Source of the DNA: Methanobrevibacter ruminantium M1
GTDB lineage: Archaea > Methanobacteriota > Methanobacteria > Methanobacteriales > Methanobacteriaceae
Assembly (NCBI RefSeq): GCF_000024185.1
Contig: NC_013790.1
Location: 1,759,501-1,823,500 of the forward strand
Reading direction: 5' to 3'
Length of the DNA: 64,000 nt
Shown here one piece after another: positions 45,243-51,793 of this stretch; within the stretch, counting starts at the first letter, position 1; each line of letters opens with the position of its first letter. A model generated the notes under the pieces. That model was not told the origin of the DNA. It made no database searches and worked only from the letters and a program-made list of their open reading frames with translations. Made by a program: the position numbers and the translations under genes.

Positions 45243-45794
45243 TTATTTTAATCTTTTTTCACTGCCTTTTCCTCCATTTCTACGGCCACGGCCTTTTTTA
45301 CCAGCACTGGTTAAGCCTCTGAGAGCTCTGCTTCTGTGCTGTTTTTCACAAATCCAGTTGATTTTTGGGTCGTTTTTAATGGAAGGACTTTGTGGGTCTA
45401 CTAAGATAACTTCAAAGTATTTGTATTTTCCGTCAGACCATACCCAGTAGGAGTTTAATACTTCCATGTTAGGGTATTTCTTAGCAACACGTTCTTCTCC
45501 GATCCTTTGAATGGATTTAGCCATGGTTATTTTGTTTACACCCATTCTTTTTGGTCTACGACCGTGTTTGAAACGAGTTTTTCTACGTCCACCACGTCTA
45601 ACTTTTACTCTTACAACTACGAAACCTTTTTTAGCTCTGTAACCGAGAGATCTTGCACGATCGATTCTGGTTGGCCTGTCGATTCTGGTAATTGCAGGTT
45701 GTTTTCTCCATTTAGGAACTCTTTGCCACATAAGTTCCCTTACATAAGACTCATCTGGATTTTTCCATGCATCTCTAATATATTTGTACATCAT
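45243..45794 (-). CDS. rpl15e: 50S ribosomal protein L15e
   Basis: This 183-residue, very basic protein has [44 protein letters not shown] and a C-terminal [13 protein letters not shown]. It is a large-subunit protein of archaea and eukaryotes. The start follows GAGGT; two adjacent ATG codons make the first Met uncertain by one residue. Confidence 0.95.
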
Positions 45795-46233: not shown

Positions 46234-46261
46234 TAAAAAAAAGTGGAGTAAAAACTCCACT
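46234..46261 (-). terminator. Strong intrinsic terminator of the small-peptide transcript
   Basis: On the minus strand AGTGGAGT-TTTT-ACTCCACT is a perfect 8-bp stem followed by seven or more T. It is the most bacterial-like terminator in the window. Confidence 0.75.
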
Positions 46262-46406
46262 AGCAGGATTCAATTTTAAAAATTTAAAATTGAAAATCTT
46301 AGTACTTATATAAATATAGTAAAAACTATTATTTAAACTTTCTTAAATTTTCAGATAGGCAAAATAAAAAATCAAATAATTTAAATTACATTTTATTAAA
46401 TTTTAT
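46262..46406 (-). other. 3' part of the small-peptide transcript
   Basis: The minus strand has a TATA-like TTTATATAAG (about 46315) that could start a second, about 50-nt RNA. An inverted repeat TTCAATTTTAAA...AAAATTGAA and ATCCTGCT (46269-46262) follow. ATCCTGCT is complementary to AGCAGGAT in the leader of the small ORF (46536-46529). Confidence 0.35.
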
Positions 46407-46490
46407 TTATAACAAAATCAAATAAAGAGTAACTTGAATAAATGCTAATAAAATAAAGAAAATACTTAATTCTAAAAGAAAATCCATCAT
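46407..46490 (-). CDS. 27-residue hydrophobic peptide
   Basis: The ORF has a full consensus ribosome site (GGAGGTGAT at 46503-46495) four bases before ATG. It encodes MMDFLLELSIFFILLA followed by FIQVTLYLILL, a single membrane helix with almost no charged residues. A TATA-like sequence lies at about 46612-46602, giving a leader of about 90 nt with a CAGGA/TCCTG hairpin. Single-helix peptides of this size are typical of type I toxins or small membrane regulators; no family recognised. Confidence 0.6.
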   Translation of the reverse strand: MMDFLLELSIFFILLAFIQVTLYLILL

Positions 46491-46504
46491 AGATATCACC
46501 TCCC

Positions 46505-46882
46505 AACAATAGTCAGGAAAGTACCAAGATCCTGCTTAAGAAAATTCAGATATCTAGATAAATTACTTGATTAATAAATTGCCTAAAAATAGTTTAAAAA
46601 TACTTATTTATAAAACTAACGATTTAGACATGTAGTTTTAACAAAATCAAATCAATTTAGCCTTTTGAAATCAATTTTACGAAATGACATCAATTTAACA
46701 AGTTCAAATCAATATTGACATGAACTAAAATTTGTAAAATAATGATTTAATAAATCAAAAAAATTAGAAAAAATAATTAAAAAAAATTTGCTTAAAATTA
46801 AAAAAGAAATTAATAGAAAAATAAAAAAAGAACTAAAAAAAATTTATAAAAATAATTAAGATTTTTATTGCTAAAATAAAAA
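46505..46882. other. Leader and promoter of the small peptide, then AT-rich spacer
   Basis: The stretch to about 46615 is the leader and promoter of the peptide gene. The remainder is AT-rich and holds the 3' end of the zinc-ribbon gene transcript. No further gene is visible. Confidence 0.45.
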
Positions 46883-47302
46883 TTACTTATCTTTTTTAAA
46901 TGAAGAGAATAAATCATCGATAAATTTCCCAAACTTAGTAAGCAAATCAGCAATTTGGTCCATTAAAGATTTATTAGACTCAATTAAAGATTTATTGAAC
47001 TCTTGAATCTGATCTGAAGTTGAAGACAAATTAGCACCACAATTATCACAGAATACCGCATCATCATCCAAATTCACACCACAATTAGGACATGTTCTAA
47101 TGATTTTTAATTCCTCTATCTTATTTCCACAGCTTGGACAAATAAACTCATTAATTCCAATGAGTGACCCGCAGCTAGGGCATTTTTTAGAAGCTTCTTC
47201 AGTTTCTTGAACAGATTGGGTAGAATCTAGTTTATTGCCACAATTAGGACATATTTCAGTGTCATCATCAAATTTTAAACCACAATTATCACATTTAATC
47301 AT
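46883..47302 (-). CDS. Multi zinc-ribbon protein
   Basis: About 139 residues with three zinc ribbons of the C-N-CG...CPNCG kind (about residues 3-22, 41-61, 70-88). A hydrophilic helix at the C-terminus ends KFIDDLFSSFKKDK. I start at the ATG giving MIKCDNCGLKF after GGGGTTT. The function is unknown. Two genes upstream on the same strand have related parts, suggesting a common role. Confidence 0.75.
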   Translation of the reverse strand: MIKCDNCGLKFDDDTEICPNCGNKLDSTQSVQETEEASKKCPSCGSLIGINEFICPSCGNKIEELKIIRTCPNCGVNLDDDAVFCDNCGANLSSTSDQIQEFNKSLIESNKSLMDQIADLLTKFGKFIDDLFSSFKKDK

Positions 47303-47389
47303 AATAAACCCCAAAAATAAAAGAAAAATAAAAAAGAAATAAATTTATCTAGATAAACATATAATTAATCAAAACATCCATATATGAAA

Positions 47390-48310
47390 TTAACTAGATA
47401 AAACCTCTTTTTTAAGCTCATCATACTCTTCTTCAGTTATGGCGCCAGAATCCAATAGTTCCTTATATTCCTTTAAAAGATCTGCTTTGCTTGGTTTTGA
47501 ATCAGTCTCGATGACAACAGTTTGAGGACTGTTTCTAGATATTTCAAACAATGCCACCAAATTCTCTCCAAATTCAAAGCTAGGAAGTCTGATTTCAAAT
47601 GAAGTGTTATCTACAAGCTTGATTAATAACCTATCAAACATATCAGCACTATCGTTGTTTACAATAAGATCTTTAAATCTTGTGGCTTTAAGAGATTGGA
47701 TATCATTTTGAATGGCTCTTTTAATGGCATGAGCGGAATTTAGACTTGTTCTTTTAGTAATGTCCTCATATCTTGAAATGTCACCAAGTCTTTTTGTAAT
47801 TCTCATAGAAACAATCTTGTCAAAGTAGAAATTGTTTATTCCCGCATTGACTTTTTTCCAGTCTCTATTATCGATTTCCATAAAGACAAACTTATCATCT
47901 TCTATTAAGAAGAAACCATCAATTGTAGTTTTATTTCCGCCATAAGAGCCAACAGAACCCCAAACTTTATGTTTAGTAGTTTTCTCTTCCAACATATTAA
48001 CCCTTACCACACTGGTTAGGAAATAATCCTTATCCTTAATTCCAAACTCATCTGCAAGCTGATCATATCTTTCAATGATTTGCTGACGTCTAAGTTCCCA
48101 TTCCTTTTGTTTGCGCGCTACAGATTCTGGAACTAATGCATTATCAAATTTCTGACCACATCCAACACAAAATACGGTTCCTTTTGAATTTTCAGTACCG
48201 CATTTAGGGCATATGTTAGAATCTACATTTCCACCATCTACCTTCTCACCACAGGAAAAGCAAAAACTTGCATCTCCCACTTCTGCACCACAATTACTGC
48301 ATTTAACCAT
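47390..48310 (-). CDS. Zinc-ribbon / PH-like / SHOCT domain protein
   Basis: 306 residues. Two zinc ribbons at the N-terminus (CSNCGAEV...FCFSCG; CPKCGTEN...FCVGCG), a basic helix, a middle beta-rich region like bacterial PH domains (about 95-275), and a C-terminal SHOCT helix pair (LLKEYKELLDSGAITEEEYDELKKEVL). The SHOCT domain often accompanies oligomerising or membrane-linked proteins. The start follows GGGGTGAT. The function is unknown. Confidence 0.8.
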   Translation of the reverse strand: MVKCSNCGAEVGDASFCFSCGEKVDGGNVDSNICPKCGTENSKGTVFCVGCGQKFDNALVPESVARKQKEWELRRQQIIERYDQLADEFGIKDKDYFLTSVVRVNMLEEKTTKHKVWGSVGSYGGNKTTIDGFFLIEDDKFVFMEIDNRDWKKVNAGINNFYFDKIVSMRITKRLGDISRYEDITKRTSLNSAHAIKRAIQNDIQSLKATRFKDLIVNNDSADMFDRLLIKLVDNTSFEIRLPSFEFGENLVALFEISRNSPQTVVIETDSKPSKADLLKEYKELLDSGAITEEEYDELKKEVLSS

Positions 48311-48360
48311 TTTATCACCCCTTTTAAGACGATATTAAAAAACCCTTTCATTTGTTATTA

Positions 48361-48894
48361 TTATTGAGAGAAAGTTTTCTTAAGTCTGTTTTCTATCTTG
48401 CTATCTTCAACTTTGCTTCCAAGATTGTTTAAATTACCTGAAATCTCACCGATTGCACTGTTTAAGGAATTGATCTTGTTATCCATGATATCAAGCTCCA
48501 ACTTCATGAATCCCTTTTCAATGTCGGCATAAATCTTAGATTCTTCAGTGATTGTTTCAACTGTTTCTCCTTCAATCAATAAATCCATCAATTGTAAGAA
48601 CACATGCTCGTGGTGCTGCTTTTCATATTCCTTAATCTCTGCACCTTCGTAGATTTTATCCAATAACATTTTTATTACATTAATGAAGTCTTCTTTATCA
48701 GAATCAATATTATCTGGAGCCAAATCAGTTTTTAGTAGGAATATAGAATCGTTTTCGTTGTTCTTTTTTAATACTAGTGAATAACCTTTGTTTTCAATAT
48801 AAACAAGAACGATAGATTTACCTTCATAAATATCTAATTCAACTTTTGAAAATTCCTTTGGAATTGACAAGAAATCTAAATTACGAACTAACAT
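48361..48894 (-). CDS. Unknown protein with C-terminal coiled coil
   Basis: 177 residues. The first 90 or so look alpha/beta (VELDIYEGKSIVLVYIENKGYSLVLKK). The end is helical and heptad-like (MDNKINSLNSAIGEISGNLNNLGSK). No family recognised. It lies 50 bp upstream of the SHOCT protein on the same strand, so they probably form an operon. The start follows TGGTGA. Confidence 0.7.
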   Translation of the reverse strand: MLVRNLDFLSIPKEFSKVELDIYEGKSIVLVYIENKGYSLVLKKNNENDSIFLLKTDLAPDNIDSDKEDFINVIKMLLDKIYEGAEIKEYEKQHHEHVFLQLMDLLIEGETVETITEESKIYADIEKGFMKLELDIMDNKINSLNSAIGEISGNLNNLGSKVEDSKIENRLKKTFSQ

Positions 48895-48923
48895 TTTTTC
48901 ACCATTTTTAAATTTTAAAAATT

Positions 48924-49010
48924 ATACTAAACGGAGTTAAAAACCCCCTAAACTAGGTAAAAGAAGTTAAAAACCCCCTAAACAATATCTAAAAGAAGTT
49001 AAAAACTATT
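48924..49010. repeat. Short tandem repeat upstream of the operon
   Basis: Three imperfect units of AGTTAAAAACCCCCTAAAC with AAAAGA spacers, about 33-37 bp period. Confidence 0.75.
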
Positions 49011-49173
49011 TTACTCTTCGATTTAAATTGTCCTAGAAATAAAAAATTTCATTTCTTAGTTCTATTTAATAATAAATTGATGAAGATAATATATAAATAT
49101 TGCTAATATCATGCTAATAGTGTGCACATAGTATGAACATAGTAATAAATATGCTAAAACTATACTTTAAATT

Positions 49174-49722
49174 ATGAAAGACCCTAATATGGACAGGATT
49201 CTTGAAGATAATAGGAAATTAATGGAAGAAAATAGGAAATTGAAAGAGGATTTAAAAGAATTGAAGAATGAATTCTATCAATTTAAAAAAAATTCAAGAC
49301 CCGGAAAGCCATTCAACTTAGAAAATAATGATGATTATAAACCTTCTGGAAACTATTATTTCCATAATAATTTTAAAGAAGAATTTGATGATGCAAACAT
49401 CAAATACAATTCCAAGGATAATCCAGAAGGAAGCTTCCACAATGACTCTGCAAATATAGTGGATATGAGCCTAATCTCATTTTTAGCAAGGTCCAATAAA
49501 AGGGTTGAAATACTAAAATCATTGAATCAAGGGGACAAAATACCATCCACCATAAGCAAAGAGATTGACGACAGCAGCCACCACGTCTCCAAATACCTCT
49601 CAAGCCTAAAAGAAAAAGAATTAGTCGTTTGCATGAATGAAGAGGATAAAAGATTCAGATTCTATAGAATAACTGCAAAGGGCAAATACTATTTGGAAAT
49701 TATTCAGAACAACCAATACTGA
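49174..49722 (+). CDS. Winged-helix transcription regulator with coiled coil
   Basis: 182 residues. The N-terminus is a charged coiled coil (LEDNRKLMEENRKLKEDLKELK). A polar linker follows, then a winged helix (about 103-175) with IPSTISKEIDDSSHHVSKYLSSLKEKELV and RFRFYRITAKGKYYLE. Likely a DNA-binding regulator. I see no ribosome site; the transcript may be leaderless, and an ATG 15 bases downstream is possible. It is divergent from the zinc-ribbon operon and may control it. Confidence 0.75.
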   Translation: MKDPNMDRILEDNRKLMEENRKLKEDLKELKNEFYQFKKNSRPGKPFNLENNDDYKPSGNYYFHNNFKEEFDDANIKYNSKDNPEGSFHNDSANIVDMSLISFLARSNKRVEILKSLNQGDKIPSTISKEIDDSSHHVSKYLSSLKEKELVVCMNEEDKRFRFYRITAKGKYYLEIIQNNQY

Positions 49723-49926
49723 ATTAAACAATAGCCTATAAAAAATATAAATAATTTTATTTATTTATCAAAAGCAAAAAGATATTTTAAAAACTATAAG
49801 AATTAAAATAAGAGATAAAAATATTTAAATAAAAATAGAATTATAAAATAATAGTTAAATTAAAAAAATAAAAAAAAATAAAAGTTTATATTGATTTATA
49901 AAAAATCAATAGTTTAACTTTAAAAT

Positions 49927-50472
49927 CTAGATATAACTAGTGTCTTGTTTTCTGAAGTGTGCTTGTGGGTGATCACATAACGGACAGACTTCAGGAGCGT
50001 CTTTTCCATAGTGGATATAACCGCAGTTATTACATTTCCAAGCAATCTCTTCATCTTTCTTAAAGACCTTATCTGCTTTTATCTTATCAGTTAAAGCATT
50101 GTATCTGTCTTCGTGAGCCTTTTCTGTTGCTCCAGCTGCATCGAATAATGCTGCAATGTCATCAAAGCCTTCTTCTCTAGCGGTCTCAGCAAATTCCTTA
50201 TACATTGAAGTCCATTCTTCATGTTCTCCAGCTGCTGCATCTGCAAGGTTAGTTAAGGTGTCAGGTACTTTTCCACCGTTTAAGAGCTTGAACCAGATTT
50301 TTGCATGTTCCTTCTCATTGTCAGAGGACTCTTGGAAAATGTCCTTGATTTCAACATAGCCATCCTTTTTAGCTTGGGAGGCATAGAATTCATATTTTAC
50401 ACGTGCTTGAGATTCGCCAGCAAGAGCGGCCTTTAAGTTTTCTTCAGTTTTGGTTCCTTTTAAATCTGCCAT
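49927..50472 (-). CDS. rbr: Rubrerythrin
   Basis: 181 residues. A ferritin-like diiron domain (GTKTEENLKAALAGESQARVKYEFYA; ESSDNEKEHAKIWF) and a C-terminal rubredoxin-like iron site (CNNCGYIHYG...CPLCDHPQAHF). It removes hydrogen peroxide in anaerobes. The start follows AGGAGAG. Confidence 0.95.
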   Translation of the reverse strand: MADLKGTKTEENLKAALAGESQARVKYEFYASQAKKDGYVEIKDIFQESSDNEKEHAKIWFKLLNGGKVPDTLTNLADAAAGEHEEWTSMYKEFAETAREEGFDDIAALFDAAGATEKAHEDRYNALTDKIKADKVFKKDEEIAWKCNNCGYIHYGKDAPEVCPLCDHPQAHFRKQDTSYI

Positions 50473-50815
50473 GATAATCTCTCCTATATTTTTTTTAATA
50501 ACAAATCCTAATTCAATTCATTGTTTAAAAACATGATATAAAAAAGGACAAATCCTAATCCAAATCACCGTTAAAAACAAATGATCCAAATAAAATATAA
50601 AAAGGACAAAATCCTAATTCAATTCACCATTTAAAAACAAATGATCCAAATAAAATATAAAAAGGACAAAATAAATTATTTTGAATCTTTTTATTTAGGA
50701 TAAGTTATTAAATATAATTTAGTTTCATAGTATAAAAACTTTTTGAAAATCTTTTGGAATATTAAAAATTAAAAATTAAAATAATTTAAAAAATTAATTA
50801 AAATTAATTATGAAA
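50473..50815. repeat. 60-bp tandem repeat upstream of rubrerythrin
   Basis: About 2.8 units of 60 bp between about 50500 and 50672 (ATGATCCAAATAAAATATAA, AAAGGACAAAATCCTAATTC). The unit nearest the gene is diverged. The rest is AT-rich, no gene. Confidence 0.85.
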
Positions 50816-51793
50816 TTAATTAATAAAGTTAATCTGTGCCTCATTAATCAAAGGATAAATTATCAATCCATCCCCATCAAGATCTTCCCTATTTAAATCT
50901 ACAGCAGTTATCTGATGATTGTCATAGGTTTTATAATATAAAATACCCTTGTTTGTATTATAGCAAGATGAATAAATGGTATATTCATATAAATCAGGGT
51001 CATTGATAAATGTCAATCCTTTTTGCTGCTCAACAGAACCTAGAATGTGGAAAAATTGAGAGACACTTTCGCTTTCGCTTGTGCCGGAAAATGAATTTTC
51101 CTTTGTGAATGCCACCTTAACAAATCTGGATGCTGATGACAAGTCACCTGGAAGTCCGATTGCTCCCATTCCCCTGCTATAGTCATCCAAATTGAGATTC
51201 TTAGAGAAAGTGTTTTCAGGTGTCTTTACTGACAAGTTCCTATAATCGTTTAAATTAAACAGCTGCATATCAAATTTAGGATTGTTGGTTAAAACTCCTA
51301 CAGGATTGTCATATACCTTCAAGCCGTCTTCCAAAGGCTCTACAATTATAGATGAATCCTTATCGGAAATCATCCAATGAAGAGGAGACAATGGAAGGTT
51401 TTCGGAATAATTGATATTCACTAAATTAAGATTCTGAAGCAATTCTTTTACATCTTCAACACTATCTGCTTGAGATAAGAGGTAAGGGATGAATTCAAAT
51501 GGAGTAACATTAACCATATCCTCTTCCATTTCCCTATATATAGCATTTCCTGCAAAGTTAAGACCTGCAATAGCAACCCCTTTCTCATTGCAAGCATCAT
51601 AGTATAAAGGATACTCGTCAATACCTGCAGCAATTCCAATAATTGCATAATGGGATTTCATATCATCTATTTTTCTATATTTAAATTCATAATTTCTTGG
51701 AGTTATGCAAACTCTTTCCTTGTATGAGATTTCATAATCAAAGTTTCTGCCAAAATAATGGTTTTCTGTTAAATATTCACTTGCTGTACACAT
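50816..51793 (-). CDS. bsh: Choloylglycine hydrolase (bile salt hydrolase)
   Basis: 325 residues of the Ntn-hydrolase family. Cys2 becomes the nucleophile after Met removal. Arg16 and Asp19 (GRNFDYE), Asn79 (GLNFAG), Asn170 (VLTNNP) and Arg223 (SASRF) match the known catalytic set of bile salt hydrolases. It cleaves the glycine or taurine amide of conjugated bile salts. There is no signal peptide. The start follows AGGAGG. It supports a gut host and may have come from gut bacteria by transfer. Confidence 0.92.
   Translation of the reverse strand: MCTASEYLTENHYFGRNFDYEISYKERVCITPRNYEFKYRKIDDMKSHYAIIGIAAGIDEYPLYYDACNEKGVAIAGLNFAGNAIYREMEEDMVNVTPFEFIPYLLSQADSVEDVKELLQNLNLVNINYSENLPLSPLHWMISDKDSSIIVEPLEDGLKVYDNPVGVLTNNPKFDMQLFNLNDYRNLSVKTPENTFSKNLNLDDYSRGMGAIGLPGDLSSASRFVKVAFTKENSFSGTSESESVSQFFHILGSVEQQKGLTFINDPDLYEYTIYSSCYNTNKGILYYKTYDNHQITAVDLNREDLDGDGLIIYPLINEAQINFIN

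Follow-up and report, generated by a model that had tools for sequence, protein, structure and literature searches.

In hok, a hydrophobic peptide is encoded by an mRNA that is closed by pairing between its 5′ and 3′ parts, and both features are predicted for the locus described here, which lies on the minus strand of a 64 kb stretch (the window) of the 2,937,203-base chromosome of the archaeon Methanobrevibacter ruminantium M1. Sok, the RNA antisense to the hok leader, is encoded on the opposite strand, unlike the candidate RNA of this locus. In TisB/IstR-1 and ZorO/OrzO a separate small RNA pairs with a short part of the toxin leader, as we propose for this locus; the genes of those systems are divergent, whereas ours are arranged in tandem and have a terminator in common. 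We propose that the locus is a Methanobrevibacter toxin-antitoxin module resembling type I, composed of two tandem, same-strand genes with an RNA as the putative antitoxin, and from comparison of related sequences we assign this reading a probability of about 0.68. That a conserved two-part locus is real is nearly certain, a separate antisense RNA gene is likely, and a toxic role for the peptide is plausible. The initial annotation of the window had called the locus type I toxin-like; that reading gains support from comparison, which points to a conserved open reading frame (ORF), conserved helices, cognate-only complementarity, promoter-like spacing and orphan RNA genes, while its hok-like fold-back in cis is possible but not the best fit and its choice of a TATA box is slightly off.

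The mechanistically closest known system appears to be AapA/IsoA of Helicobacter, in which, according to excerpts of its description, a short toxic peptide is controlled by module-specific small RNAs of ~80 nucleotides (nt), and the mRNA has long-distance 5′-3′ pairing and anti-Shine-Dalgarno sequences near the Shine-Dalgarno sequence (PMC6733600). Long-distance 5′-3′ pairing is found here too, as helix A/A′ in 10/10 copies, and a short peptide, an anti-Shine-Dalgarno sequence near the Shine-Dalgarno and a module-specific RNA are predicted. The two differ in host, which is archaeal here, in sequence, no relation having been found, and in geometry: the same excerpts place IsoA on the opposite strand, where it forms an 80-bp duplex (PMC6733600), whereas our predicted RNA lies downstream on the same strand and would form ~10-14 plus 6-8 pairs. 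CreTA, a type VIII system of Haloarcula, is likewise an archaeal short locus with a very strong ribosome site and an RNA antitoxin, as far as parts of its description go (PMC12737573), and in these respects the M1 locus, with its strong ribosome site and candidate RNA antitoxin, resembles it. The same parts state that CreT acts as an RNA and that CreA works via Cascade at the creT promoter (PMC12737573), while the RNA predicted here is complementary to the mRNA leader; no cas gene was seen by eye in the compared 1.5 kb flanks on each side, and no CRISPR repeat reached the Rfam gathering score in the window. The locus differs from hok/sok in lacking matches to known families: five family peptides matched no Pfam or NCBIfam family at E 10, Hok and other type I toxins included, in a search whose power is limited by very short queries, and no Rfam family reached the gathering score in the window, the three sub-threshold matches at the locus (E 0.7-1.5) looking like chance.

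The ORF, Shine-Dalgarno sequence, complementary pair and terminator on which the initial annotation had built are all present on the minus strand where it had placed them. In the direction of transcription, the elements of the locus are:

46604-46615, minus strand: TATA-like box TTTTATAAATAA of the putative toxin mRNA, recognized from sequence, with a predicted mRNA start at ~46584
46559-46585, minus strand: arm A, the mRNA 5′ end, partner of A′ by pairing energy
46549-46562, minus strand: arm C, partner of the start-codon region, with 14 pairs in the window copy
46530-46536, minus strand: R1, AGCAGGA, a possible partner of leader R2 or, on the short RNA, of CCTGCT (cognate pairing)
46519-46530, minus strand: B, copy-specific target of the predicted short RNA, with 12 contiguous pairs to B′
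46512-46519, minus strand: R2, TTCCTGAC, anti-Shine-Dalgarno (R1:R2 -7.6 and R2:R3 -9.2 kcal/mol in the window copy)
46495-46507, minus strand: R3 and Shine-Dalgarno (GTTGGGAGGTGAT), assigned from sequence and R2:R3 pairing; the Shine-Dalgarno GGAGGTGAT itself is at 46503-46495
46482-46497, minus strand: arm C′, covering the start codons, from pair counts and fold
46407-46490, minus strand: ORF with an ATG-ATG start, 27 codons plus stop, MMDFLLELSIFFILLAFIQVTLYLILL, a predicted single membrane helix, open in 10/10 copies
46356-46383, minus strand: arm A′, partner of the mRNA 5′ end by pairing energy
46338-46344, minus strand: A-rich stretch AAGAAAG, 5′ of the short-RNA TATA and A-rich in the copies, which we take to resemble a B recognition element (BRE)
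46330-46337, minus strand: TATA-like box TTTAAATA of the predicted short RNA, conserved in position
46235-46307, minus strand: predicted short antisense RNA of ~73 nt, the antitoxin candidate (fold z -4.98; covariance model)
46296-46307, minus strand: B′, copy-specific antisense arm, pairing with B
46269-46294, minus strand: internal hairpin separating the two antisense parts, its stem kept and its sequence differing in other copies
46262-46267, minus strand: CCTGCT, the antisense part facing R1, identical in 13/13 copies (for most of them it belonged to the search pattern)
46235-46261, minus strand: terminator, with a hairpin at 46261-46242 and a T run to 46235

In the mechanism we envisage, gene 1 would yield an mRNA for a hydrophobic or amphipathic peptide of 25-27 residues, and gene 2, from its own promoter just 3′ of the ORF, an RNA of ~70 nt with the antisense arm at its 5′ end and a terminator common to both genes. 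The mRNA would be kept closed, its 5′ end paired with a stretch behind the ORF and its start codon held inside a stem. Binding of the short RNA to the variable loop and R1 of the leader would then release R2 for pairing around the Shine-Dalgarno, so that translation stays off. Two transcripts, repression in trans and toxicity are the inferred parts of this scheme.

Copies were defined by a leader pattern consisting of AGCAGG, TCCTGACT and AGGTG with gaps, which was run on 138 genomes of the family and gave 12 matches in 10 of them; the reversed pattern, run as a control on the same genomes, gave none. Ten of these matches, in eight genomes of the genus, have CCTGCTAGTGG 269-292 nt downstream; the other two, in G075 and G149, lack this 3′ mark and were rejected. 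The presence of both marks at this distance in 10/10 complete copies, together with the empty control, argues that the elements did not arise by chance. Complete copies occur in 8 of the 19 genus genomes and in none of the 131 other genomes of the order, and a covariance model of the leader, built from these ten copies, recovers the same ten in 8/150 genomes of the order. A model of the 3′ part matches 11/150 genomes, or 10, all in the genus, once G080 is rejected on reading. The ORF and its associated pairing are conserved across the ten complete copies in the genus, a check that the initial annotation had itself proposed.

Complementarity between the two genes is specific to each copy. In the window, ATCTTGGTACTT (46530-46519) pairs with AAGTACTAAGAT (46307-46296), and a hairpin is bulged out before ATCCTGCT (46269-46262, minus strand), next to the terminator. 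The 8-nt complement between this last element and AGCAGGAT (46536-46529, minus strand), the leader stretch containing R1, had been recognized in the initial annotation; it is real, but forms only the invariant edge of a far longer antisense arm with a core of 10-14 bp. Between AGCAGG and TCCTGACT the leader loop varies in length and sequence, as does the stretch 5′ of CCTGCT, and the partners always match: B:B′ comprises 10-14 contiguous pairs across 10/10 copies, and cognate duplex energies lie between -12.6 and -18.5 kcal/mol in all ten pairs. When arms were compared among nine copies (G015, whose arms are identical to those of G009c, was dropped), standard core pairs numbered 90/90 for cognate and 376/720 for swapped arms, and the cognate energy sum on the diagonal was unmatched by any of 200,000 permutations. 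In the same table seven leaders have their own RNA in first place; for G016 and G005, which have almost interchangeable RNAs, it comes second. The contrast between cognate and non-cognate pairs is lowered because the copies are related. With 2000 shuffled loops per copy, between 0 and 27 equalled the energy of the real one. The three paralogs of G009 carry different antisense cores, each preferring its own arm, with leader a and RNA b at -1.7 and leader b and RNA a at -5.9, against -13.8 and -12.6 for their own pairs. In type I systems the antitoxin is an RNA with complementarity to the mRNA of the toxin, and the predicted RNA is complementary to the mRNA, copy by copy, in 10/10 copies.

Three orphan RNA genes, in G005:C43, in G002:C48 and in M1 itself (191062-191139, minus strand, outside the window; L292, G000:C1), retain the box, antisense arm, hairpin and terminator, with leader and ORF gone. 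They occupy two sites at which other species keep the full locus, and in G002 the gap stops just short of the A-rich stretch. No copy of the leader and ORF without the RNA part was found, an asymmetry that would be expected if the peptide were harmful. Over the stretch between promoter and terminator, identity of the G005 orphan with G009a is 98.1%, compared with 88.8% over the final 600 bases of the neighbouring gene (third positions 148/200); identity of the G002 orphan with the full G005 copy is 96.4%, compared with 90.3% for the gene. In the M1 orphan both sides of the terminator stem have changed and pairing is kept; a search of the genome for its target with a 13-mer and at most one mismatch gave five matches, one of them itself, against two in the reversed control, none of them clear.

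These orphans bear on the possibility that the peptide is harmless, a small membrane protein with a physiological role governed by the same two-RNA switch. All the structural evidence would fit such a protein equally well, as would the fact that the loci keep to a small number of chromosomal positions shared by several species, with none found on mobile records; even so, we consider it unlikely. Three cases of RNA retained in the absence of the peptide and no case of the opposite, an orphan RNA that is nearly unchanged, and tandem copies with separate specificities are the traces that a harmful peptide would leave.

In 13/13 sequences (10 full, 3 orphan) the first base of a TATA-like box lies 29-34 nt 5′ of the first antisense base, behind an A-rich stretch. 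This is the usual distance of an archaeal promoter, and with such spacing the predicted RNA start falls at the antisense arm, making it probable that the 3′ part is an RNA gene of its own, ~73 nt long. Taken alone the spacing is a weak argument, and the orphans strengthen it. A promoter of its own is expected of a type I antitoxin RNA; the candidate here is the TATA-like box, near-fixed in spacing in the orphans too, with a per-copy chance level of 5-7%. None of 200 shuffles gave a fold as good as that of the predicted RNA (z -4.98). A short RNA had been guessed at in the initial annotation, and cognate-only complementarity, the conserved promoter-like box and the orphan RNA genes now favor it. 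Its proposed promoter, a TATA at about 46315, is off by ~20 nt, since an RNA from there would start after most of the antisense core; TTTAAATA at 46337-46330 is better placed, in a position conserved in every copy. The window does contain a second TATA-like word, at 46306-46320 just 5′ of the antisense arm, which is the one chosen earlier. For the putative toxin mRNA, an AT-rich box of variable sequence lies ~29-32 nt 5′ of GGCAA in 10/10 copies.

Several helices are predicted in the mRNA. A/A′ reaches -22.7 kcal/mol in the window copy, with 0/1000 shuffles equally good, and -16.0 to -28.3 kcal/mol in 10/10 copies, equalled by at most 4/1000 shuffles; the C/C′ stem over the start codon has 11-15 pairs in 9/10 copies, and G009a, which falls outside this count, shows the stem in its fold. 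In the fold of the window mRNA, A/A′, C/C′ and R1/R2 occur side by side (z -5.09, 0/200 shuffles equally good). These helices were mostly missed by RNAalifold on MAFFT alignments, because the variable loop misaligns, and pairs were counted on cognate duplexes instead. R2 pairs with R1 at -7.5 to -10.8 kcal/mol and with R3 at -9.2 to -10.6 kcal/mol in nine copies, and weakly (-3.6) in G009b. With R1 taken up by CCTGCT of the short RNA, R2 should be displaced towards the Shine-Dalgarno, and we infer that R2 may switch between these two partners, a step for which support from modelling is mixed. In the tandem copy b of G009 (L178, G009:C1), and in this one alone, the Shine-Dalgarno region reads CAGTAGG and R2:R3 is weaker.

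Alternatively, there might be a single RNA and no separate short one, the 3′ end pairing in cis with the leader of the same molecule in the manner of hok. The mRNA has no demonstrated terminator of its own, both arms would be present on a transcript that reads through, and A/A′ indicates that 5′-3′ closure is in use. We nevertheless regard a single RNA as distinctly improbable in view of the orphan 3′ halves, which have a promoter-like box and no leader, the near-fixed spacing of that box in 13/13 sequences, and the pseudoknot that B/B′ and A/A′ would form within one molecule. The fold-back of the 3′ end onto the leader suggested in the initial annotation could form in cis; the stronger 5′-3′ closure, though, is that of 46585-46559 with 46383-46356, and the complementary pair better fits RNA-RNA contact in trans.

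A structured non-coding RNA with an incidental ORF would account for the strong fold and the conserved leader, and seems very improbable given an ORF open in 10/10 copies (25-26 codons counted from the second start), a strong Shine-Dalgarno sequence, and changes that are fewest at codon position 2 (32, vs 90 and 103, in five copies). Pairwise dN/dS (nonsynonymous over synonymous rates) of the ORF, at 0 to 0.65 in the nine listed pairs, counts in favor of the module. The peptides have 25-27 residues, and those of one clade form a plain hydrophobic helix with a grand average of hydropathy (GRAVY) of 2.0-2.4. In L169 (G016:C32) the first start is AGG rather than ATG, and GTG is left as the start. 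A repeat or a miniature mobile element, with inverted repeats that look like antisense pairing, can be set aside almost entirely: inverted repeats do flank the ORF and there is one tandem duplication, but several species share the same sites, copies per genome are few, and the complementary arms diverge together (target duplications were not searched for).

Several observations weigh against a type I-like module. Kinship of the copies means that the permutation and shuffle counts overstate independence, and shuffled loops paired as well in 27/2000 trials for G009c and 23/2000 for G015. A perfect box at the observed spacing arises in 5-7% of Markov sequences, is cheap in AT-rich DNA, and is here found in related copies. 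R3 is broken in G009b, and modelled binding of the RNA, with its target region kept unpaired, lowers Shine-Dalgarno exposure in 6/10 copies and raises it in four, the window's included. For the G002 orphan, identity relative to the gene is 93.6%/93.0% against G015 and 93.6%/95.0% against G009c, so that the excess is absent in two of three comparisons. The shortness of the ORF precludes a strong claim from dN/dS, and peptides of the other clade are amphipathic and only moderately hydrophobic (GRAVY 0.76-0.83). Finally, phages, plasmids and viral contigs yielded no copy of the locus.

According to excerpts of a 2025 paper, the type I systems identified so far came from Proteobacteria, Firmicutes and Tenericutes alone, to which that paper adds Cyanobacteria (PMC12390103), and no report of an archaeal or Methanobrevibacter type I system was recognized in a literature search by titles and abstracts. 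TADB 3.0, as described in parts of its report, covers predicted systems of types I-VIII from complete genomes of bacteria and archaea and requires at least 30 residues of a toxin or antitoxin protein (PMC10767807), a limit at which peptides of 25-27 residues would be missed. We think the odds slightly better than even that the locus represents a first archaeal type I family of independent origin, with a tandem same-strand antitoxin, a three-way Shine-Dalgarno switch, and orphans under selection, either as standing immunity against the toxin of a sister copy or as regulators in trans. If this is true, a membrane peptide came under antisense control in the archaeal domain as well. The locus offers exact predicted RNA ends and lies in a rumen methanogen of practical interest.

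A mobile-element or phage origin was also rejected on the absence of 3′-mark matches on phages, plasmids and viral contigs; the first leader pattern matched 80 viral stretches, and the 3′ mark followed none. In named genomes, the leader pattern was mostly chance among the matches listed, and among fetched loci the 3′ mark occurred only in L114 and L143, from Methanobrevibacter metagenome-assembled genomes, which are equal to G004 and G015. By eye, matches of the 3′ pattern in G024, G069, G084, G121, G154 and G004:C41 fall within coding sequence; they were rejected, as were, after reading of the sequence, weak model matches in G080, G016:C78 and G015:C16:3172.

Site 1, beside an L15e-like gene, is occupied in G000, G011 and G018, and by a copy in G007 that is cut by a contig end; site 2 holds the tandem pair of G009, site 3 is used in G009, G015, G016 and G005, and one copy lies elsewhere in G004. 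A few fixed sites across species make ancestral residence likelier than recent mobility. In the window, the minus-strand locus is flanked by what we take to be a ribosomal protein L15e-like ORF (45243-45794) and, across from it, a zinc-ribbon ORF (46883-47314). At site 1 this second neighbor of the locus varies between species: the window has the presumed zinc-ribbon ORF, G011 a gene that is presumably rubrerythrin-like and G018 one that is presumably bile-salt-hydrolase-like, and ORFs that we assume to be rubrerythrin-like and bile-salt-hydrolase-like sit further out in the window (46883-51793).
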